64,000 nucleotides of DNA from [Ruminococcus] lactaris ATCC 29176 (GTDB taxonomy: Bacteria > Bacillota > Clostridia > Lachnospirales > Lachnospiraceae): NCBI RefSeq assembly GCF_025152405.1, contig NZ_CP102292.1, positions 2,294,001-2,358,000 on the forward strand, given 5' to 3'. Both the position numbers and the translations under genes were made by a program. Of the stretch, positions 31,996 through 42,603 are shown piece after piece. Numbering within the stretch: the stretch's first letter is position 1; every line of letters starts with the position of its first letter. The notes below the pieces were generated by a model. The model was not told the origin of the DNA. It saw only the letters and a program-made list of their open reading frames with translations, and did no database searches.

Positions 31996-33036
31996 CTATT
32001 TCTCTAAAAATTCATCTACATTCCCGGTTTCTACTTTCTGATATAAAGACATATAGTATCTTCCATCTTTCAGTTTATGCTTACTGATATCATTTCCTTT
32101 AAAAAGATCAACAGCAAGCCGGGCTATCTCTCCTGCCTGGTCTACATTATCGTTGTATACTGTTCCCTGCATTGTTCCTTCTTTTACTGCCTCCAGTGCA
32201 TCCTCCAGTCCGTCTATTCCGAAAATAACCGGTCTTTGTTCCTGACTGTATCCTGCATTTTTATATGCCTCTACTGCACCAAGTGCCATCTCATCGTTAT
32301 TGGATATAACCAATTCGATCTCGGTCCCATAATGGTCGATCAACTGGCTCATACGATTCTCTGCCTGCCCCCTGTTCCAGTCTGCGAACTGATAACTTAA
32401 TTTTTCAAGCTCTATGCCATTCTCAATCAGCGTTTTTACCGAGCAGTCCGTCCGGCTGATAGCATCCTGGTGTCCCGCTTCTCCCTCTAAGAGTACATAC
32501 TGGATCTTGCCATCCTGATTCTTATCTGCTCCCGGATGAGCTTTCAGATAATCTGCTGCAATTTCTCCCTGCATTTCTCCCGACTGCTTTGCATCGCACC
32601 CTACATAGTACAGTTGATCCCACTGCATCAGATCTTCTTTTACAGGTTCTCTGTTAAAAAAGATCACCGGAATCTTTTCCTGTCTTGCTGCTTTGATGAT
32701 ATCTGACGGTGCGGTTCTGTCAACTAGATTCACGCACAGCACATCACACCCTGCTGCAATCATTTCTTCCACCAGTTCATCTTGGTCTCTCTGATCATTA
32801 TCACCATTCTTTACAGAAACAAGAATCTTCATATCTTTTGACTCTTTTAATTTGAGATCCTCCCGGATCTGCTCTGTCATGGTATTGATAAAAGGATCGT
32901 CCTGTGTATACGTCACAATGCCTACCCTCAGTGTCCGGTCTGAGGTATTTTCTTTTTTTCCACACCCCGGAAATGACAGAGCAAGAACGGACACCGTCAG
33001 AAATATCATTGCTTTTCTTCTCTTTTTTCTACTCAT
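31996..33036 (-). CDS. Galactose/glucose-binding lipoprotein, standard domain order
   Basis: 346 residues. Lipoprotein signal with lipobox LSFPGC (C25). The mature part is a type I periplasmic-binding protein in normal order: VGIVTYTQDDPFIN, VLCVNLVDRTAP, VIFFNREPV, YVGCDAKQSGEMQGEI, calcium loop DKNQDGKIQY, ISNNDEMALGAVEAY and FGIDGLEDAL. The match to MglB-type galactose-binding proteins is good. The gene overlaps the upstream binding-protein gene by 8 bases and belongs to the sensing operon, so it likely feeds sugar information to the kinase rather than, or in addition to, the transporter. Confidence 0.9.
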   Translation of the reverse strand: MSRKKRRKAMIFLTVSVLALSFPGCGKKENTSDRTLRVGIVTYTQDDPFINTMTEQIREDLKLKESKDMKILVSVKNGDNDQRDQDELVEEMIAAGCDVLCVNLVDRTAPSDIIKAARQEKIPVIFFNREPVKEDLMQWDQLYYVGCDAKQSGEMQGEIAADYLKAHPGADKNQDGKIQYVLLEGEAGHQDAISRTDCSVKTLIENGIELEKLSYQFADWNRGQAENRMSQLIDHYGTEIELVISNNDEMALGAVEAYKNAGYSQEQRPVIFGIDGLEDALEAVKEGTMQGTVYNDNVDQAGEIARLAVDLFKGNDISKHKLKDGRYYMSLYQKVETGNVDEFLEK

Positions 33037-34003
33037 AAGAATACAAAAACCTTTCTATATCTTCCGAAAATAAATCTTTTTTGTAAACTACCTGTATTTC
33101 TGTTTCATGACTTTCCATCTGATACCAGGAATTTTTTAACTTACTGGCAATCTCATTCATGCTTTCATATCCGACCTCATACAGATCCGGCACGATCAGG
33201 CATTGTATCTTTCCTGCATCCAACAGCGAAAAGGCTTTGATACTTGTCCCAATCCCGTAAATTTCTGCTCCGCTATAGAACCCATTTTCTGCCTTTTCTC
33301 CTACTTCATCCAGAATATATGGATCGAGGACTGCCAGATAATCTACTTTTTCTTTCGCTTTCAATATTTCACCGGCATCTTCCTTGCTCTCCTGATTATA
33401 CTTCCATATGATCCTGCCACCTCCGGCTTCCATCACCTCACAGAATCCTCTGACACGGTTCCTGCTTTCTTCAGTCCTTGCATTTCCTGCTACAACTCCG
33501 ATTCGCTTTCCATTCATAAGACCGGATGTATTTTTCAACATCTGCTCTGCCAGTTCCTGCCCCATTTTATAGTTATCCGGCTTGACTGTTACAAATGAAG
33601 AGGCGGCATCCGCTTCATAACTGTAAATATCCTGCGTGATCAGCACAAACGGTTTCGTTCCCTGCAACTGCTCTAAAACCTGCTTCGTATCCTGTCCCGG
33701 AGCAGGGTTGATAATAAATGCATCTACGTCATTCTCCAACTGCTCCCGGATCATCTCCTGCTCATCCTCAGAGCTTTCCTGTTCGTCCGTATTACAGATA
33801 ATCAGCGACAGATTCTGGACTTTGGCCGCCTGCTTCATTCCGTTAAGCAGGCTGTCCCATCTCTTGTCTCCTGAATTTTCTACGATCACCGCCACTTTTT
33901 TAGGTGGCACATCTCCATGAAAGATACTGTAGAAAAAATAGGCTGCAAGAACCGCAAGCAACGCTTCTGCTATCAGGAAAGTTATTTTATTTCTTTTCGT
34001 CAT
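33029..34003 (-). CDS. Membrane-anchored sugar-binding protein of the sensor operon
   Basis: 324 residues. One N-terminal membrane span (ITFLIAEALLAVLAAYFFYS) with no lipobox Cys, then a substrate-binding fold (KKVAVIVENSGDKRWDSLLNGM, INPAPGQD, MNGKRIGVVAGN, GIGTSIKAFSLLDAG). It overlaps the kinase gene end by 17 bases and the next gene by 8, so translation is coupled. Such proteins commonly serve as extracellular ligand sensors for YesM-type kinases. The ligand is probably a sugar, but this is inferred from context. Confidence 0.8.
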   Translation of the reverse strand: MTKRNKITFLIAEALLAVLAAYFFYSIFHGDVPPKKVAVIVENSGDKRWDSLLNGMKQAAKVQNLSLIICNTDEQESSEDEQEMIREQLENDVDAFIINPAPGQDTKQVLEQLQGTKPFVLITQDIYSYEADAASSFVTVKPDNYKMGQELAEQMLKNTSGLMNGKRIGVVAGNARTEESRNRVRGFCEVMEAGGGRIIWKYNQESKEDAGEILKAKEKVDYLAVLDPYILDEVGEKAENGFYSGAEIYGIGTSIKAFSLLDAGKIQCLIVPDLYEVGYESMNEIASKLKNSWYQMESHETEIQVVYKKDLFSEDIERFLYSYE

Positions 34004-35879
34004 ATGCTTCTCCTTTCCTGTAAGTCTGTTCCTCCAGTTTTTTTCTGTTCTCTTCTGAAAATGGGATTGCAGGAATATGGATTACAACTTCCGTTCCCTC
34101 GTCTGGCTCACTGTATATTTTCAAACCATATTCTTTTCCATACATAAGCTGGATTCTTGTATGTACATTGATCAGTCCCACGCCCGAACCATGCTTTGGT
34201 ACCTTTCCATTATCCAAAAGAAGATTCTCTACAATCTCCTCACTCATTCCCATTCCATTATCAATAACAGAAATATAAATATCATTTCCGTCCTTTTTTC
34301 CTTTGACTGTGATCTTTCCGCCGTCATCTTCGTCCATATTTCCTACTCCGTAATAAATGGCATTTTCCAGAATTGGCTGGATGATCAGCTTAATCGTACA
34401 ATATTCTTTTATCTCTTCCTCTATAAGGAACTCTGTCTCAAAACGGTCTTTGTAACGAACTTTCTGAATATTCATGTAACTTGTGCTATGTTGCAGCTCA
34501 TCTGCGATTCTGATGACGGTTCTTCCCTTCGACAGACTAATCCTGAGCAGCTTCGCAAGCTCTGATATCATAAAGACTGCTTCTTCATTTTTGTTAGCCT
34601 CTACCATCCATGTGATTGATTCCAGCGTATTATACAGGAAATGTGGATTGATCTGACTCTGCAGGGCATCCATCTCACTTTTCCGCTTTTCATTCTGCTG
34701 CCGGATGATTTCTTCCATCAGGACTTCTATCTGCTCATAGGATTTTTTCACAGAATACCCAAGGTGTCTGATCTCAGAGAATCCTCCAATATAAATATCT
34801 TTTGTCTTTCCCGTCTCGTAAGCTTTTACAGATTCATTCAGTTTAAAAATCGGATTTGATATTTTCCTTGCTACAATGCGGTTCACTCCCAGAAGCATCA
34901 TGAAGAAAATGAGAGTCGTCACGACAATATAATACCGGAACTGCTGAATTTTGGATGTCTGAACACTGTCAGGAACTACTCCTACCAGTCGCCAGCCCGT
35001 ATAAGAAATACTTCCAACTACAACCGAGCCATTCCGCCCATTGACCGGCAGTTCATACGTCCCATCCTCATATTCTTTGATCTGTCCACTTTCCTCTGTC
35101 AGAAGTCCTCTGTCAATTTCTGCCTGTCTTGGATGATAAATCATTTCGCCATCCCGGTTGCAGAGATAATAATAGACTTCATCCGAAGACTGGTTGATAC
35201 GTTCCAGAATTTCACGGATCATGGAATATTTCATATCCACCAGTAACACACCGCTTACCGGCTTCTCCCTATCGTTAATATCCACCGATCTGCTCAGAGA
35301 AATGACCCAGTAATACCGATACGTTCCATCCTCGAACAGATTCTGGATATGTGGGGAGGAAAAATGAATATTTTCAATCTCATCCGCTGCATTCCGATAC
35401 CAGTCCTGCTGTGCTGCCCCGGCATCCGCTTTCTCGTTGACAAGTGGTTCTGCCGCCACCAGATTGCCTTCATTATCATACAGTGCCATGCTCTGGATCT
35501 TGTCTGTATTAATCTCATAAAGCAGACTGAACTGACGTTCAAATTCCTGACTGGATATATCATATTCCTGAATGATATTATAATTGACTGCATTGGAAAT
35601 CTGTCTGACGTTCAATAAATCTGCCTCCAGCCTGTCCACCGCACTCTCCACAACACTTTCCGTGTTCGCAACCGCTGTCTGCCGGATTGCCATTTTAAAT
35701 CTGCTGTAGATCAGGAATCCCATCAGAACCGTGGTTACGATCGTCAGTGCAGTAAGTACAGCCATAATAATTGACTGAATATCCCAACTGATAAACCTTC
35801 CCCGACAAAACCATCTCTGCATCCGCAATTTTATTGAATATCCATAATTTTCCTTTCTCTTCGTATCGTTTCTCTTCAC
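33987..35879 (-). CDS. YesM-type sensor histidine kinase
   Basis: 630 residues. Membrane spans at ~35-58 and ~317-335 enclose an extracellular dCache-like region of ~260 residues, followed by HAMP and a His_kinase domain with H413 (INPHFLYNTLES). The ATPase has ENAIYYGVGN (N box), DNGMGMS (G1) and GSGVGLINV. Works with the YesN-type regulator encoded 79 bases upstream. The operon continues with two sugar-binding proteins, so it likely senses galactose or another sugar and controls mglBAC. Confidence 0.92.
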   Translation of the reverse strand: MKRNDTKRKENYGYSIKLRMQRWFCRGRFISWDIQSIIMAVLTALTIVTTVLMGFLIYSRFKMAIRQTAVANTESVVESAVDRLEADLLNVRQISNAVNYNIIQEYDISSQEFERQFSLLYEINTDKIQSMALYDNEGNLVAAEPLVNEKADAGAAQQDWYRNAADEIENIHFSSPHIQNLFEDGTYRYYWVISLSRSVDINDREKPVSGVLLVDMKYSMIREILERINQSSDEVYYYLCNRDGEMIYHPRQAEIDRGLLTEESGQIKEYEDGTYELPVNGRNGSVVVGSISYTGWRLVGVVPDSVQTSKIQQFRYYIVVTTLIFFMMLLGVNRIVARKISNPIFKLNESVKAYETGKTKDIYIGGFSEIRHLGYSVKKSYEQIEVLMEEIIRQQNEKRKSEMDALQSQINPHFLYNTLESITWMVEANKNEEAVFMISELAKLLRISLSKGRTVIRIADELQHSTSYMNIQKVRYKDRFETEFLIEEEIKEYCTIKLIIQPILENAIYYGVGNMDEDDGGKITVKGKKDGNDIYISVIDNGMGMSEEIVENLLLDNGKVPKHGSGVGLINVHTRIQLMYGKEYGLKIYSEPDEGTEVVIHIPAIPFSEENRKKLEEQTYRKGEAYDEKK

Positions 35880-35958
35880 TTCGATCCCCTTTTACCACTT
35901 CATTCTGCTTTTTCTTATCTCATTTCTTATGTGATGTCGGGGTCAAAAGCCCCCGACT

Positions 35959-37554
35959 TTAATGCTCCGTCCGATACTTGGATGGTGACATCCCAAACCG
36001 TTTCTTAAAGACATAACTGAAATAGTTTGCATCCTGATATCCCACACGTTCCGCAATTTTATAGCTCTTCTCATTGGTTTCAAGCATAAGATCTGCTGCA
36101 TGATCCATTCTGTAATCTGTCAGCCAGGAAATAAATGTCTTTCCCGTTTCCTTTTTAAAAAGTGATGAAAAATACGAATTTGATACTCCCAGCTCCGAAC
36201 ATACTGTATCCAGGGAAAGATCTGGCTGCATATACCGGTCTCTCACAATTCCTTTTGCCTCTTCCACGATACGTCTTGAAGTCGTATTTCTTGCATTTTT
36301 CAGTTCTTCACTGATCGCCACTGCTGAATTTACAAGCCAGCCCTTTAGGGTACTTTCATCCATCTCCGGCACTTTTTCATAAGGATTTTCTACCTCTGCA
36401 CAATAATCTTTAAAGTCAATAAAATTATTTGCACAGAAACGATAAAATGCCCCAACCATCTCCATCGTTGCCAGCTTGTACTGGCTCACTGTCTTCGCAT
36501 TCCGGTGCAGCTTTTCGATCTCACTCTGAGCTGCCTTCTCGATCTCTTCCCTGCTTCCAAGGTTGATCGTCTTGAATAAAGCATGCATCTTGGTATCCTC
36601 GGACTGAACCGAGATCTCCTGCTCTGTCGGAGCGATCTCACCAATGTTGATCGCCCTCTGTGTCCCGTACAGCACCCGGTAAGACACCGCTTCTCTCGCT
36701 CCTGCATACGACTGGTTGATCGTAAACAAACTGTCGCAGGCTCTTCCGATCCCGGCTGTCACAACCGCTCCCATCACTCTGTACGCCCATCTGCAAAATC
36801 TGTCGCAATCATCCGTAAACGCAACCGCTTCCTCTTCTGAATTTAATTCCATCACAAGCACTGTATTTCCAAGATAAGTAAACATCTGGCTTTTCCATTT
36901 CTCTGCGATCCTTTCCCGGATCTCCTGCTCTACCGACATGGATAACAGCAATGCATTCATCCCTTCCGGCACATGATGTTCGGAAGTATGAAAGACAGCA
37001 CATCCAAAAAGTGGCCCTGTCATATGGATCTGATATGCTGCAAGAAATTTTTCACAATCTGCCTCCGTAATCCGTCCTTCGATCAATGAGATAAATAAAT
37101 TGGTCTGAAACATCGGCAGTGATGCATTAAAATAATGCTCCAGCTTTTTTACATTCAACTTTTCTTCCCGTTCATTATCCAGCGTCTTTTTCAGCCTTTT
37201 CAGGCACTCCGACAATTCCTGGGAATTGATCGGCTTGAGCATATACTCTTCAATCTCCAGATGAACGGCTTCTTTGGCATATTCAAATTCATCAAATCCG
37301 GTAAAAATAATAATATGAATATTCTGATAGTCCTCATTCAGGGCTCTCGCCAGTTCCAGTCCGTCCATATAAGGCATTTTTATATCTGTGATCACTACAT
37401 CCGGCTGTAGCCGCTCCACAAGTTCCAGTGCTTTTACCCCGTTATTCGCACTGCCGATCACTTCAAATCCAAGCGTTTCCCATTCCAGTTTGAGTCTGAT
37501 CGCCTCTATTGCTTCTTCTTCATCATCAACAAGAAGTACTTTATACTTATCCAT
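35959..37554 (-). CDS. YesN-type AraC-family response regulator
   Basis: 531 residues. Receiver domain with D10-D11 and phosphoacceptor D57 (VVITDIKMPYMDG), a ~280-residue middle region and two C-terminal AraC helix-turn-helix units (SLDTVCSELGVSNSYFSSLF, KIAERVGYQDANYFSYVFKK). First gene of the sensing operon, 200 bases after mglC's end. Probably activates mglBAC. Confidence 0.93.
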   Translation of the reverse strand: MDKYKVLLVDDEEEAIEAIRLKLEWETLGFEVIGSANNGVKALELVERLQPDVVITDIKMPYMDGLELARALNEDYQNIHIIIFTGFDEFEYAKEAVHLEIEEYMLKPINSQELSECLKRLKKTLDNEREEKLNVKKLEHYFNASLPMFQTNLFISLIEGRITEADCEKFLAAYQIHMTGPLFGCAVFHTSEHHVPEGMNALLLSMSVEQEIRERIAEKWKSQMFTYLGNTVLVMELNSEEEAVAFTDDCDRFCRWAYRVMGAVVTAGIGRACDSLFTINQSYAGAREAVSYRVLYGTQRAINIGEIAPTEQEISVQSEDTKMHALFKTINLGSREEIEKAAQSEIEKLHRNAKTVSQYKLATMEMVGAFYRFCANNFIDFKDYCAEVENPYEKVPEMDESTLKGWLVNSAVAISEELKNARNTTSRRIVEEAKGIVRDRYMQPDLSLDTVCSELGVSNSYFSSLFKKETGKTFISWLTDYRMDHAADLMLETNEKSYKIAERVGYQDANYFSYVFKKRFGMSPSKYRTEH

Positions 37555-37765: not shown

Positions 37766-39418
37766 TTATTTCTTCTGTACATATTTCAGACAGTCAAGAG
37801 TTACAGCGGCAAGAATGATGATACCTTCAAAGATGAACTGAAGGTTTGTATCAATACCAAGAATTGTAAGAGAGTATGTAAGGGATGTAAAGATCAATAC
37901 ACCGGTTACAACACCTGAGATCTTACCAATACCACCTGTAAATGATACACCACCAACTACGCAGGCTGCAATGGCATCCATATCCCAGCCCTGTCCATAA
38001 GCAGCACTACCAGAACCAACCATTCTGTTACACTCAAGCCATGAACCAAATCCATAAAGGATACCAGCAAGGATAAATGCTCCAAGAGTTACTTTAAATA
38101 CTGAAATACCTGAAACTGCTGCTGCCTCCGGGTTTCCACCTACAGCGTACAGATTCTTACCAAATGTTGTCTTGTTCCAGATAAACCATACAACTACAAT
38201 TGCTACAACTGCCCAAAGAATGATCGTCGGGAAACTACCAATCTGTGGAATAAACATATTCGGGATCGCTGCATCGATCGCACCGAAAGATACACCCTTT
38301 GTTGCATAAGTTACAAGACCGAAGATGATCAGCATGTTCGCCATTGTGGAGATGAACGGATGCATCTTAAATCTTGCCATGAAAAATCCTGCGATACAGG
38401 AGAATACAGTCGTAAATAAAATACATACAAGCAAAGCAAGAATTGCTCTGGTTGCTGCCGGCATATTAGAGAAATCAAAAATATGTCCGAACACACTACC
38501 TGTATTAATTCCATTGTGCATGATAATCGTTGCTGTAACCATACCCATACCAACCATACGTCCTACGGAAAGGTCAGTACCAGTTAAGAGGATCAGACCT
38601 GCAACACCAAGTGCCAGGAACATTCGAGGTGAAGCCTGCTGCAGGATGTTCAGGATATTCGTGTATGTGAACAGCTGCGTATTCTTAACGATTGGTGTAA
38701 TGATACATAATGCAATAAAGATCAGGATAATTACAATATACAGACCATTCTTATACAGGAACTGTGCTGTATTGAATGTGTATTTGTAGTTCTCAAATCT
38801 CTGTGCCATTTTCTGTCCGAATGTATATTTTGACATACGGAGCAGATCGATCAGGTGATATTTATGAGCAAATGCATCATGTCTTCTGTCCTTGATCTCC
38901 TGCAGTTTTGACTCGTGAGCCATCTCAGCATCGAAAAGCTTGTTCTTATATACATACTTTTCATCTTTGATATCTTCAGCAGCAGAAAGCTTTTTCAGGT
39001 TCTGCTCATGCTCTGTCTTGATCGTGGCACGTACCTTTTCGTACTCTTCATTTTCAATCGCTTTTTCTGCCGCACAGCTTGCAGCTACTTTGTCATAGTA
39101 ATCTTTATCATAATGCTGTGCGAGATAATCTTCTGCCTCTTTTACTAATTTGGCAACTTTATCTTTATTTGATGCTTCTACGGCTTTTGCCTTTTCAAGG
39201 TCTGCCTTATCCTTTGCAATCATTCTGTCTCTTTCGTCTTTTGACAGATTTTTGTCTTCTTTTGCGATGGCAATATGATTTTTCAGGCTGCGGACTTTGT
39301 CAGATCCTTCTACACGAAGTTCATCAATCTGTGCCTGTATCTTTCCAACATATTCTTCAATCGGCTGTAAAAGCTTTTCTTCTGCATCAGCCGAAAGGAT
39401 AGTACTTCTGTCTGCCAT
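37766..39418 (-). CDS. mglC: Galactose ABC transporter permease with N-terminal coiled-coil extension
   Basis: 550 residues from ATG 39418 (AGGAG 8 bases upstream). The last ~325 residues are a normal MglC/RbsC permease with ~8-10 membrane segments, GVAGLILLTGTDLSVG and GRMVGSGSAAYGQGWDMDAIAACVVGG. Residues 1-~215 are an added cytosolic part, very rich in Lys, Glu and Asp and predicted coiled coil (KDKADLEKAKAVEASNKDK). Standard MglC is ~336 residues. The extension is in the same frame and intact, so it is a real domain. It may dock a cytosolic partner or brace the ATPase. Third gene of mglBAC. Confidence 0.9.
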   Translation of the reverse strand: MADRSTILSADAEEKLLQPIEEYVGKIQAQIDELRVEGSDKVRSLKNHIAIAKEDKNLSKDERDRMIAKDKADLEKAKAVEASNKDKVAKLVKEAEDYLAQHYDKDYYDKVAASCAAEKAIENEEYEKVRATIKTEHEQNLKKLSAAEDIKDEKYVYKNKLFDAEMAHESKLQEIKDRRHDAFAHKYHLIDLLRMSKYTFGQKMAQRFENYKYTFNTAQFLYKNGLYIVIILIFIALCIITPIVKNTQLFTYTNILNILQQASPRMFLALGVAGLILLTGTDLSVGRMVGMGMVTATIIMHNGINTGSVFGHIFDFSNMPAATRAILALLVCILFTTVFSCIAGFFMARFKMHPFISTMANMLIIFGLVTYATKGVSFGAIDAAIPNMFIPQIGSFPTIILWAVVAIVVVWFIWNKTTFGKNLYAVGGNPEAAAVSGISVFKVTLGAFILAGILYGFGSWLECNRMVGSGSAAYGQGWDMDAIAACVVGGVSFTGGIGKISGVVTGVLIFTSLTYSLTILGIDTNLQFIFEGIIILAAVTLDCLKYVQKK

Positions 39419-39436
39419 ATCCAATGCTCCTCTCTC

Positions 39437-40945
39437 TTACAAATATTTCGCACTAAGTCTCAATAATTCTTCCTGATTCGTTTCTTTTGTATTTACAATT
39501 CCCGCAAGGTGTCCATTCGACATAACACCGATACGGTTTGTAATTCCAAGGATCTCAGGCATCTCAGATGAAACTACGATGATCGTCTTTCCCTGCTTTG
39601 CCATATTGATGATCAGTTCGTAAATCTCATATTTTGCACCTACGTCGATACCTCGGGTAGGATCATCCATCATGAAGATATTTGGAGAACGTTCCAGCCA
39701 TTTTCCAAAAATTGCTTTCTGCTGGTTACCACCTGACAGGCTCGAGATCATATCATCCGGTCCCATACATTTTGTATGCATGACCTTGATCTCCTCAGCA
39801 GTTGCACGAACCATACTGTCATGAGACAGAGCAATTCCACTTTTATAATGATTCATATTTGCGATTGTCGTATTAAATGTAATATCTGCCTTGAGGAACA
39901 GTCCATTCGCTTTTCGTTCCTCAGTGATCAATGCAAATCCATGATCCATGGCATCTTTTGGTGACGAGAAATTCATCGTCTTTCCATTATAGATTACATT
40001 TCCTGCCGCTCTTGTACGCATTCCGAAGATCGTCTCAAGCAGCTCGGTACGTCCTGCACCAACCAGACCATACAGTCCGAAAATTTCACCTTTTCTGATA
40101 TCAAAGGAAATATTCTGTAATTTCGGTGCATATTTTGTAGAAAGGTTCTGTACGGAAAGAACCGTCTCTCCAGGTGTATTGTCTACCGGAGGGAACCGGT
40201 TATCAAGAGAACGACCAACCATGGCTGAAATCAACTCATTCATATTGGTGTCTTTACTTTCCTTCGTCATAACCAGACTACCATCACGGAGAACTGAGAT
40301 CTCATCACAGATCTCAAAAATCTCGTCCATCTTATGTGAGATATAGATCAGGGAAATACCCTGTGCCTTCAGTTGTCTCATCATCTTGAAAAGCTTGGCA
40401 ACTTCCGGTGCTGTCAGTGATGAGGTTGGCTCATCCAGTACAATGATCTTGGAATTATAAGAGATTGCTTTTGCGATCTCACACATCTGACGCTTTGATA
40501 CTGACATTCTCTTCATTGGCTGCGTCAGGTTGACAGTAATTCCAAGCTTTCTGAATAAGTCAGATGCTTCCTTTTTCATTCTTCCTTCATCGACAACCCC
40601 CAGTGAATTTTTCGGGTAACGACCAAGGAACAAATTGTCTATAACACTTCTTTCCAGACACTGGTTCAGCTCCTGATGAACCATTGCAACACCATTTTCA
40701 AGTGCTTCCTTAGGGCCAGAGAAATTTACCTCTTTGCCGTCTAATATTATAACCCCTTCGTCTTTCTGATACGTTCCGAAGAGACATTTCATCATCGTCG
40801 ATTTTCCGGCACCATTCTCACCCATCAGTCCCATGATCGTTCCGGGCTTCACATTCAGGTCGATATGCTTCAGCACCTTATTTCTACCGAAGGATTTGCT
40901 CATGCCATTGATCGATAAGATATATTTGTTCTTATCCTCTGCCAT
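39437..40945 (-). CDS. mglA: Galactose/methylgalactoside ABC transporter ATPase
   Basis: 502 residues from ATG 40945 (AGGAAG upstream). Two fused ATPase domains as in all sugar CUT2 systems: Walker A GENGAGKST (42-50), signature MSVSKRQMCEIAKA, Walker B IIVLDEPTSSL, and a second half with GLVGAGRTE, LSGGNQQKAI and FMMDDPTRGID. Powers galactose import through MglC. Between mglB and mglC; gap to mglC is 18 bases. Confidence 0.96.
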   Translation of the reverse strand: MAEDKNKYILSINGMSKSFGRNKVLKHIDLNVKPGTIMGLMGENGAGKSTMMKCLFGTYQKDEGVIILDGKEVNFSGPKEALENGVAMVHQELNQCLERSVIDNLFLGRYPKNSLGVVDEGRMKKEASDLFRKLGITVNLTQPMKRMSVSKRQMCEIAKAISYNSKIIVLDEPTSSLTAPEVAKLFKMMRQLKAQGISLIYISHKMDEIFEICDEISVLRDGSLVMTKESKDTNMNELISAMVGRSLDNRFPPVDNTPGETVLSVQNLSTKYAPKLQNISFDIRKGEIFGLYGLVGAGRTELLETIFGMRTRAAGNVIYNGKTMNFSSPKDAMDHGFALITEERKANGLFLKADITFNTTIANMNHYKSGIALSHDSMVRATAEEIKVMHTKCMGPDDMISSLSGGNQQKAIFGKWLERSPNIFMMDDPTRGIDVGAKYEIYELIINMAKQGKTIIVVSSEMPEILGITNRIGVMSNGHLAGIVNTKETNQEELLRLSAKYL

Positions 40946-41034
40946 ATCTCTACTTCCTTTTCTTAGTAAAAGAAGGGTATCATTTTTATCTGACACCCCT
41001 CTGAGTTAAATCATTTTACTTTAAAACAATTAGT

Positions 41035-42306
41035 TTACTTTGAGAGAATTGATGTGTAAGATGATGCGTTATCTGTCTTAACCATGTTGATTGCAAATGC
41101 ATCATACTCTCCTGGGTTTCCAAGACGATTTGTAATGTTGGACTCTGTCTGTCCATCACCACCGATGTAATCTACTTTCAGGTTCAGGAGGTCATCATAG
41201 TTCTGCAGCAGTGGCTGATATGTAGAACTTAAGAAGTTATCTGAAGCATTGTAGATATCAAGCCATACTTTCTTAGATGGACTCTTGCTCTCATCCAACT
41301 GGTTAGAAACTTTGTCGTAAACCTTTGTGGAATCTGTGAAGTCCTGATAGTTATCTGCTGTTACAGCTACGTTCAATGCGTAGTAGGATCTCTCTTCCTC
41401 ACTGTATCTGTAATCTTCACCCTCTGTCAGGCAGTTTCCTGCATCATCAGGAGTTCCGATACCTGTATCAACATCTACACCATCCAGTGCATTACGAAGT
41501 ACTCTCAGTGTCAGGTAAGCCTGTACGTCTGCATGCTGGGAAATTGTTCCGCCGTATCCTTCTGCGATTGCTGCAACTGCATCACTATTTGCATCATATC
41601 CGAATGTAGGAACTTTGTTGTCTTTTGCCCATGCATTGAACATTGACATTCCCATACCATCATTATTAGAAACAACTACATCAATCTGATCTCCAAAGGA
41701 AGCTGTCCATGTTCCGATTGCGTTACCTGCTGTAGCAGCATCCCATGTAGCTCCTGCGGAGTTCTTCATCTCCTGAGAAGCAAGCTCACGGATTGTATAT
41801 TTCTTTCCGTCAACTTCGATCGTTGCATCCTGTACAACCTTGGATGATCCATCTACGTTTGTTCCTGCCGGTGTAGAATCAACAGTTCCGCTTGCCTCTA
41901 CGCCTGTTCCAAGAGCGGAACGGACACCACGTGTACGTGCGATAGAATCGTTATGTCCGATATCTCCAATTGCAAGAACGTATCCGATCACACCGTCTCC
42001 GTTACGGTCCATCTTAGCTGCGTTCTCTTTGATATAATCAAGTACCATCTCGCCCTGAAGTTCAGCACCCTGATTAGCATCGAATCCTACATAATATGTA
42101 TCATCGTTGAAGCTGAGTGCTTCTTTGTCAAGCTCTCCTGTTGAGCTGTTGGATGGCTGACGGTTGAACCAGCAAAGCGGCTTGTCTTTATTTGCTACGC
42201 CACTGTCTGATCCTTTTGAATCTCCACCACCTGATGAACCACATCCGACCATTGAGAAAGCAAGTGTTGCCACAGCTAATGCAGCTAAAAATCTTTTCTT
42301 ATTCAT
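41035..42306 (-). CDS. mglB: Galactose-binding lipoprotein, circularly permuted
   Basis: 423 residues from ATG 42306 (GGAGG 10 bases upstream). Lipobox MVGC (C22). The order differs from normal MglB. After the linker comes the middle segment (CWFNRQPS; YYVGFDANQGAELQGEM; calcium loop DRNGDG 100-105; SNNDGMGMSMFNAW; FGYDANSDA). The segment that should be first (VWLDIYNASDNFL, VDYIGGDGQTESNITN, YDAFAINMV) stands last, at ~345-423. The lipoprotein at 31996 has the normal order, so the comparison is within the window. It feeds MglA-MglC. Probably a true permutation, since all elements of both lobes are present once. Confidence 0.9.
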   Translation of the reverse strand: MNKKRFLAALAVATLAFSMVGCGSSGGGDSKGSDSGVANKDKPLCWFNRQPSNSSTGELDKEALSFNDDTYYVGFDANQGAELQGEMVLDYIKENAAKMDRNGDGVIGYVLAIGDIGHNDSIARTRGVRSALGTGVEASGTVDSTPAGTNVDGSSKVVQDATIEVDGKKYTIRELASQEMKNSAGATWDAATAGNAIGTWTASFGDQIDVVVSNNDGMGMSMFNAWAKDNKVPTFGYDANSDAVAAIAEGYGGTISQHADVQAYLTLRVLRNALDGVDVDTGIGTPDDAGNCLTEGEDYRYSEEERSYYALNVAVTADNYQDFTDSTKVYDKVSNQLDESKSPSKKVWLDIYNASDNFLSSTYQPLLQNYDDLLNLKVDYIGGDGQTESNITNRLGNPGEYDAFAINMVKTDNASSYTSILSK

Positions 42307-42603
42307 AATTACATGTCCTCCTATTTTTAGATTTTCGTCTTGCTTCATTGACTAAGCTTATTATAAGCATCTCTTTCCTTTGAAAGAATAGAATATTTTT
42401 GGATTTTTTATTAAAATTTTTATGATTCATTGATTTTTTATATATATATTTAACAGTATTATTAATATTTTTTAGATTCAGGAAGTGGTTTTATGTATCT
42501 TTCCGATATTTTCTTTCTGATATTCGACATTTTTCTGCCAATTTTGCACATTTCCCTTCCAGCGATTCACCTGTCAGAAAAACACTTCGTATTCCCCTCA
42601 ACG
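42307..42603. other. Upstream region of mglBAC
   Basis: Minus-strand -10 box TATAAT at 42365-42360 inside a 13-bp palindrome (GCTTAT-T-ATAAGC, 42356-42368). The -35 region is poor (TTCTTT, ~42388), as expected for an activator-dependent promoter; YesN is the candidate. Upstream to 42600 is AT-rich, with no gene. Confidence 0.55.

Follow-up and report, generated by a model that had tools for sequence, protein, structure and literature searches.

A circularly permuted MglB-type lipoprotein of the TpMglB-2 kind in an mgl operon of [Ruminococcus] lactaris

The locus and its genes

The window, a 64,000-nucleotide stretch of the [Ruminococcus] lactaris ATCC 29176 genome (NZ_CP102292.1, positions 2,294,001 to 2,358,000), carries a putative sugar-importer operon and a neighbouring sensor cassette. 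The gene at 41035–42306 (−) encodes P0001, a permuted MglB-type lipoprotein of 423 aa belonging to the Type Ic or TpMglB-2 kind, as judged from its open reading frame, a full-length match to PDB 5jx2 and Pfam. The coordinates and residue numbers of the initial annotation for this protein were correct. A ribosome-binding site, AGGAGG, can be read from the sequence at 42317–42322 (−), 10 nt 5′ of the ATG at 42306. An alternative in-frame ATG at 42348, 42 nt upstream, would give 437 aa; we favour the 423-aa start because AGGAGG precedes the ATG at 42306.

Residues 1–22 of P0001 (42241–42306 (−)) comprise a signal peptide and lipobox. The latter, LAFSMVGC, ends in Cys22 and marks P0001 as a lipoprotein by what we take to be the lipobox motif; a loose form of this pattern occurs within the first 120 residues of 90 of the 100 distinct permuted proteins compared in this study. 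The body of the protein (approximately residues 39–330; 41317–42192 (−)) corresponds to the second half of the canonical N-lobe followed by the C-lobe, as delimited by Pfam, HMM rotation, contact residues and alignment. By alignment, an approximate linker (residues 331–343; 41278–41316 (−)) joins the canonical C-end to the canonical N-end. It is followed by the moved N-terminal block (approximately residues 345–421, with PF18610 at 345–414; 41044–41274 (−)), defined by Pfam, HMMs and predicted structure.

The operon continues with mglA, the importer ATPase (39437–40996 (−); Pfam ABC_tran), and mglC, a permease of 552 aa (37766–39424 (−)) in which Pfam BPD_transp_2 matches residues 255–539 only. 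The first 219 aa of MglC (38768–39424 (−)) form a long N-terminal extension that is charged, looks coiled-coil-like by eye and has no Pfam match at E 0.001. The sensor cassette consists of an AraC-type response regulator (35959–37554 (−); Pfam and gene order), a sensor kinase with dCache_1, His_kinase and HATPase_c domains (33987–35879 (−); Pfam), a second sugar-binding protein (33029–34003 (−); Pfam Peripla_BP_4) with an apparent N-terminal hydrophobic anchor judged by eye, and, as its last gene, P0002 (31996–33036 (−)), an MglB-like lipoprotein of 346 aa in canonical order by Pfam, structural model and PDB match. Cassettes of this type (31996–37554 (−) in the window) lie upstream or downstream of mgl operons in canonical and permuted genomes alike.

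This gene order recurs among the best 80 of 361 candidates confirmed in a genome scan. The gene mglA directly follows the permuted gene in 77 of these 80 loci, the other three of which end within 420 nt of it. Downstream sequence of 3.6 kb or more is available for 70 loci, and 69 of these contain mglC; it encodes 508–563 aa in 68, and in L069 a frameshift or sequencing error divides it into ORFs of 175 and 385 aa. In L021 mglA is truncated and mglC absent. A matching response regulator lies downstream in 50 of the 64 loci (again among the best 80 of 361) with at least 5.9 kb; in two of the remaining 14, L067 and L070, the complete cassette lies upstream. Nine of ten longer stretches contain the regulator, the kinase, the second binding protein and the canonical MglB, all of which are missing from L149; in L152 the kinase is spread over two ORFs. 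In L067 and L070 a canonical mglB immediately precedes the permuted gene. It was considered as a relic of a tandem pair and rejected as such: it is the sensor-cassette copy, placed as in canonical operons.

Order of parts in P0001

P0001 is a circularly permuted MglB. The initial annotation had given the order of its parts as middle, C-terminal lobe and N-terminal segment, and both Pfam and HMM rotation bear this out: they run from the second half of the N-lobe through the C-lobe to the N-terminal β-α units (approximately residues 345–421). Peripla_BP_4 aligns residues 68–276 with profile positions 94–256, the front of the profile being absent, and PF18610 (Peripla_BP_7) matches residues 345–414 at 137.7 bits against a gathering cut-off of 36.8. 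The paralogue P0002 is in the usual order, as had also been stated, with a Peripla_BP_4 match over profile positions 1–257. The further claim of a one-to-one alignment between the segments of the two paralogues is borne out by their order and position more than by their letters, identity in the block being 14%.

Rotations of P0001 were scored against an HMM built from 12 canonical MglBs; the ribose-type protein L111 was excluded from the canonical set. From residue 37 in native order, P0001 reaches 120.4 bits, divided among three pieces that end with the block on HMM positions 29–108. The 12 best of 78 rotations score 137.9–139.2 bits and all place the block directly before residue 37; the top one (139.2 bits) produces a single continuous N-lobe match over HMM positions 29–196. 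With a shuffled block placed first, 200 controls average 117.8 bits (s.d. 1.2) and reach at most 125.1. Native and rotated scores against this HMM also agree with the earlier statement that each part is present once. The NCBIfam model NF011924 behaves similarly, rising from 90.3 bits for the native to 100.1 bits for the rotated sequence, where its best stretch becomes profile 27–188. Both values lie below the 420-bit threshold of this canonical MglB equivalog, as does that of P0002 (248.1 bits).

The annotation had named a full second N-terminal segment encoded upstream as evidence that would count against a permutation. We looked for one in 101 regions, made up of the 100 distinct permuted genes, P0001 among them, and the window stretch again, with up to 1.5 kb per side; the only such segment was the separate canonical sensor gene of L067 and L070. 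Strands 1–3 of the N-lobe stand at the C-terminus of P0001, the arrangement that defines Type Ic or Cluster Bc, as judged from the rotation, the homology of the block and its predicted β-α-β-α-β-α order.

Scores against P0001 fall into two peaks. Among ORFs of all loci (E 1e-5), 113 score at least 648 bits, 13 score 80 bits or less and none lies between, so that an intermediate form is absent among the scored ORFs, all from loci chosen by similarity. Thirteen of the 113 permuted ORFs were identical duplicates, and their removal left the 100 distinct proteins.

Predicted structure, sugar contacts and hinge

An AlphaFold model of P0001 was built from a 46-sequence alignment and is of moderate quality (mean pLDDT 67.5, pTM 0.66), with residues 353–361, 383–390 and 408–423 below pLDDT 50. 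Within the block it predicts strand 345–352, helix 357–373, strand 376–381, helix 388–394, strand 403–408 and helix 417–421. This modelled β-α-β-α-β-α pattern fits the annotation's reading of residues 345–423 as the N-terminal β-α units, and nothing in this moderate model places them otherwise. In a Foldseek comparison of the model with the PDB, four TpMglB-2 chains rank first (E 3.3e-31 to 6.7e-30, 41–42% identity, TM by target 0.63–0.76). Next come canonical glucose-binding proteins (E 2.1e-8 to 3.2e-7), aligned over just 272–292 columns with TM by target of 0.41–0.45. Such canonical proteins rank first for the P0002 model (three sequences, pLDDT 75.8).

Conservation of the binding site was followed at ten positions of E. 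coli MglB that we take to be its sugar contacts. Nine are identical in all 100 permuted proteins, P0001 included, and the position of N256 is Q in all 100. The block carries the equivalents of D14, F16 and N91, kept in 100 of 100 permuted proteins, and the body those of H152, D154, R158, W183, N211 and D236.

The strands of a type I binding-protein lobe are parallel. From the published N-lobe strand orders (2-1-3-4-5-6 and 5-4-6-1-2-3; PMC4990184), the new N-terminus should start from what is canonically the fourth strand, which lies two positions away from the first in the same sheet. If that holds for these strands, the permuted and the canonical N-terminus would both leave from the same edge, and the suggestion that permutation puts the lipid anchor at another surface is overstated. 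Rewiring of the hinge, also proposed in the annotation, fares better: the linker found by alignment between the canonical C-end and N-end of P0001 (residues 331–343) would correspond to the fourth cross-over described for TpMglB-2 (PMC4990184), and by analogy the hinge of P0001 is probably wired differently from that of canonical proteins.

Distribution and canonical sister operons

The homologue search with the C-terminal block that the annotation had called for is answered by PF18610. One match is present in the window's genome. In the family, 32 of 299 genera have it, with one match each and all above 140 bits; in a draw across the phylum it occurs in 2 of 398 genomes, one of them the window's own, and in the window's genus in 16 of 58. 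A same-genus genome, G408 (83% complete; locus L201), lacks a PF18610 match and has an operon of the canonical sister type.

The best 80 of the 361 confirmed candidates are 72–91% identical to P0001 over their best segments. The nearest permuted protein among these 80 is that of L002 (91%); the protein of [Ruminococcus] torques ATCC 27756 (L047) stands at 78%. In G769, a genome of the window's genus, the PF18610 match has the contig number and coordinates that it has in G732, the genome of L047, and the genus thus probably includes this organism. By record title alone, most of the 80 loci belong to Lachnospiraceae or other Clostridia, two to Coriobacteriia (L055 and L059), and single metagenome-assembled genomes bear titles such as Bacteroidales (L063) and Enterococcus (L078). 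The permuted protein of Tractidigestivibacter has 77% best-segment identity. The patchy spread and this 77% identity together suggest horizontal transfer of the permuted operon.

For comparison, 20 regions, one of them from G408, were picked for canonical MglB matches in genomes without PF18610; they are a chosen set and not a sample. In every one of the 20 a canonical MglB adjoins mglA and the permease has 327–423 aa, and 18 also have a canonical sensor copy beside a second binding protein. Three of the canonical operons (L196 8988, L197 10991 and L198 4934) have permeases of 409–423 aa, approximately 80 aa above the usual length; the 219-aa extension is not matched in their genomes.

The distribution of the MglC extension follows that of the permuted receptor. 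It is matched in 33 of 299 family genera, namely the same 32 that have PF18610 and G643 (weak, E 3.9e-4), and in the phylum draw in the same 2 of 398 genomes. Matches in the 32 genera are nearly full length in 29 and partial in three (G428, G630 and G670). The linkage of extension and permutation reflects the joint inheritance of a single operon, and the 32 genera may represent one event rather than 32.

Origin of the permuted gene

In a tree of MglA (35 proteins, 510 columns; 13 permuted operons) the permuted operons form a clade (100/100), which joins the canonical operons L183, L187, L192 and L201 at 97/90. The loop between R158 and W183 has 63–64 residues in all 16 permuted proteins aligned. 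In canonical proteins it has 38 residues in L187 and L201 and 26 in L183 and L192, against 24 in the remaining 39 aligned; the 38-residue loops, in MglBs encoded beside mglA, are thus between the usual 24 and the permuted 63–64. The MglA tree and the long loop together suggest a canonical MglB close to the L183/L187/L192/L201 group as the ancestor of the permuted protein.

Trees of MglB itself, with 16 of the 100 permuted proteins and with one canonical L194 MglB that fitted neither group dropped, bear on a different origin. A deletion could have joined tandem mglB-like genes, a sensor copy followed by a transporter copy, in which case body and block would derive from different paralogues. We consider such a chimera unlikely, although several observations speak for it. 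Head-to-tail mglB pairs occur in canonical operons (L182–L195). The block tree puts the permuted proteins inside 13 other canonical transporter MglBs (96/99), whereas the MglA tree and the loop point to the four operons named above; and the body tree holds the permuted proteins outside the 13, weakly (82/69), leaving the fork between the permuted proteins, the four and the rest unsplit. Against this, approximately unbiased (AU) tests reject none of seven body or block placements (p 0.149 to 0.558), and the placement of the block is unsafe because its branches are very long (3.55 and 5.47 changes per column). The HMM-score and tree tests of a chimera are suggestive at most.

A more inclusive scenario seems to us slightly less probable still. 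The permuted receptor and the MglC extension would constitute one co-evolved importer subtype, born from a single fusion of head-to-tail Lachnospiraceae mglB genes that contributed body and block from different paralogues; a canonical copy would have been kept for sensing and the permuted one for transport, with later spread to other families and phyla. The reading that we prefer is the one suggested by the MglA tree and the long loop, in which the permuted operon split off from Lachnospiraceae-type operons that had a canonical MglB, and the MglC extension was probably acquired within that lineage.

Homology of the moved block

The 2016 article on TpMglB-2 left open whether its moved part had been taken over from a different gene and had come to resemble the N-terminal units by convergence, and reported 13% identity for it (Brautigam et al. 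2016, PMC4990184). For P0001 the corresponding alternative is that the C-terminal block originated in an unrelated gene and grew similar to the missing units convergently, in which case the protein is not a true permutation. Low identity is what such an origin would lead one to expect: the block of P0001 shares 14.1% (11/78 columns) with P0002, 22.1% (17/77) with E. coli MglB and 24.7% with the L194 protein, the corresponding values for the body being 33.6%, 31.6% and 31.2%, and identities to the six canonical N-termini compared range over 14–25%. By itself, moreover, the P0001 block scores 8.8 bits against the HMM of 12 canonical proteins and is not separated from shuffles, which reach 11.0 bits (1,299 of 2,000 reported).

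Profile comparisons argue for common descent. In hhalign, block positions 5–52 align with canonical positions 37–86 at a score of 25.3, with a probability of just 12.8%; none of 200 column shuffles equals that score (maximum 20.9, mean 13.2, s.d. 2.6). An HMM of the block was built from the 100 distinct permuted proteins, including P0001, and its shuffle control gave at most 7.3 bits (4,200 made, 2,757 reported). This maximum is exceeded in 16 of 42 canonical proteins and not in 26. The best match, 18.4 bits, puts HMM positions 2–78 on residues 72–152 of T_L194, the N-terminus of a transporter-slot MglB, in the right register. The best match begins within the first 100 residues in 34 of the 42; the block HMM misses the other eight N-termini, that of P0002 among them, and these exceptions score 1.9 bits or less. 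In the reverse direction, an HMM built on the N-terminal segments of canonical proteins detects the C-terminal block in 57 of the 101 regions (13.6–17.0 bits), its other matches being confined to the stand-alone sensor genes in L067 and L070.

These matches, together with the equivalents of D14, F16 and N91 in every permuted protein, make a convergent block very improbable. By sequence comparison the moved block looks homologous to the canonical MglB N-terminus, which addresses the question that Brautigam et al. left open (PMC4990184). That the order is an artefact of a frameshift, wrong start or misassembly, with a normal N-terminal segment upstream, can practically be dismissed: the in-frame ATG 42 nt upstream would lengthen the product to 437 aa, but AGGAGG precedes the 423-aa start, the sole second N-terminal segment within up to 1.5 kb of the 100 permuted genes is the separate sensor gene of L067 and L070, and the identical order is seen both in 80 loci of other records (the best 80 of 361, 72–91% identity over best segments) and in crystal structures of the relative TpMglB-2.

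Function and comparison with known systems

P0001 is very probably the lipid-anchored receptor of an MglBAC (CUT2-type) importer with the TpMglB-2 (Type Ic or Cluster Bc) topology, and its likely ligand is D-glucose, perhaps galactose. As the sequence shows, P0001 is a canonical MglB interrupted just before the fourth strand of its N-lobe, with its first β-α units shifted whole to the C-terminus and nothing duplicated; a new linker connects the old C-end with the old N-end, and the sugar-contact residues are retained in body and block. From the structure of TpMglB-2 and its ligand binding, a Venus-flytrap cleft with a fourth hinge crossing would be expected to close on glucose and pass it to MglAC. 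Gene order suggests that the canonical P0002 serves the sensor kinase and P0001 the importer.

Natural permutations of two-lobe binding proteins deserve notice, but for this one a relative has already been crystallized and the class named. The permuted kind is known from TpMglB-2 (PDB 5jx2, 6bgc and 6bgd), and the moved block is PF18610 in Pfam. Brautigam, Deka, Liu and Norgard reported the crystal structure of TpMglB-2 (Tp0684) in 2016, called its topology circularly permuted, described the fourth hinge crossing and showed D-glucose binding with a conformational change (PMC4990184). Besides other treponemes, they traced this topology to Gram-positive bacteria, among them many gut commensals, and introduced Type Ic and Cluster Bc as names for it (PMC4990184). 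Among the open-licence papers listed in literature searches, no other on this permutation was recognized. Added here are the evidence for homology of the block, the 20 canonical sister operons, the link with the MglC extension and the canonical MglB in the sensor cassette. Related gut bacteria carry both operon states, canonical MglB with an unextended permease and permuted MglB with an extended one, often by the same sensor cassette. The pair offers a natural comparison for the effect of permutation on transport and for joint change of permease and receptor.

TpMglB-2 of Treponema pallidum is the closest known system. By the authors' class criterion, more than 90% coverage of TpMglB-2 with matching N-termini (PMC4990184), P0001 belongs to Type Ic: phmmer aligns the two end to end (query 39–420, E 7.7e-90), with 382 of the 401 residues of 23–423 matched to chain residues 19–384 of 387. 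Both are lipoproteins in the same permuted order, with approximately 42% identity over the aligned chain, and in both D replaces the calcium-site E205 (D209 in P0001, phmmer alignment). They differ in organism group, in the insert before W188, which is longer in P0001, and in that the P0001 operon runs on into a sensor cassette.

With E. coli MglB (GGBP) and the other canonical type I glucose/galactose-binding proteins P0001 shares its parts, nine of the ten sugar-contact positions and a calcium-loop-like sequence, DRNGDGVIG; what distinguishes P0001 is the order of the parts, and canonical type I proteins and the permuted kind differ in N-lobe strand order and number of hinge crossings (PMC4990184). 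P0002 and the Lachnospiraceae-type sensor-cassette copies share with P0001 the MglB family, the lipoprotein character and the gene cluster. Unlike P0001 they are in canonical order and adjoin a kinase, response regulator and second binding protein, not mglA. The cassette itself resembles the three-component sugar-sensing system XylFII-LytS-YesN, which we take to comprise a binding protein, a YesM/LytS-type kinase and an AraC-type regulator near a sugar importer. The likeness in gene content lies in a binding protein next to a YesM/LytS-type kinase and an AraC-type regulator with a sugar importer adjacent; the difference is that in the R. lactaris cassette two binding proteins follow the kinase.
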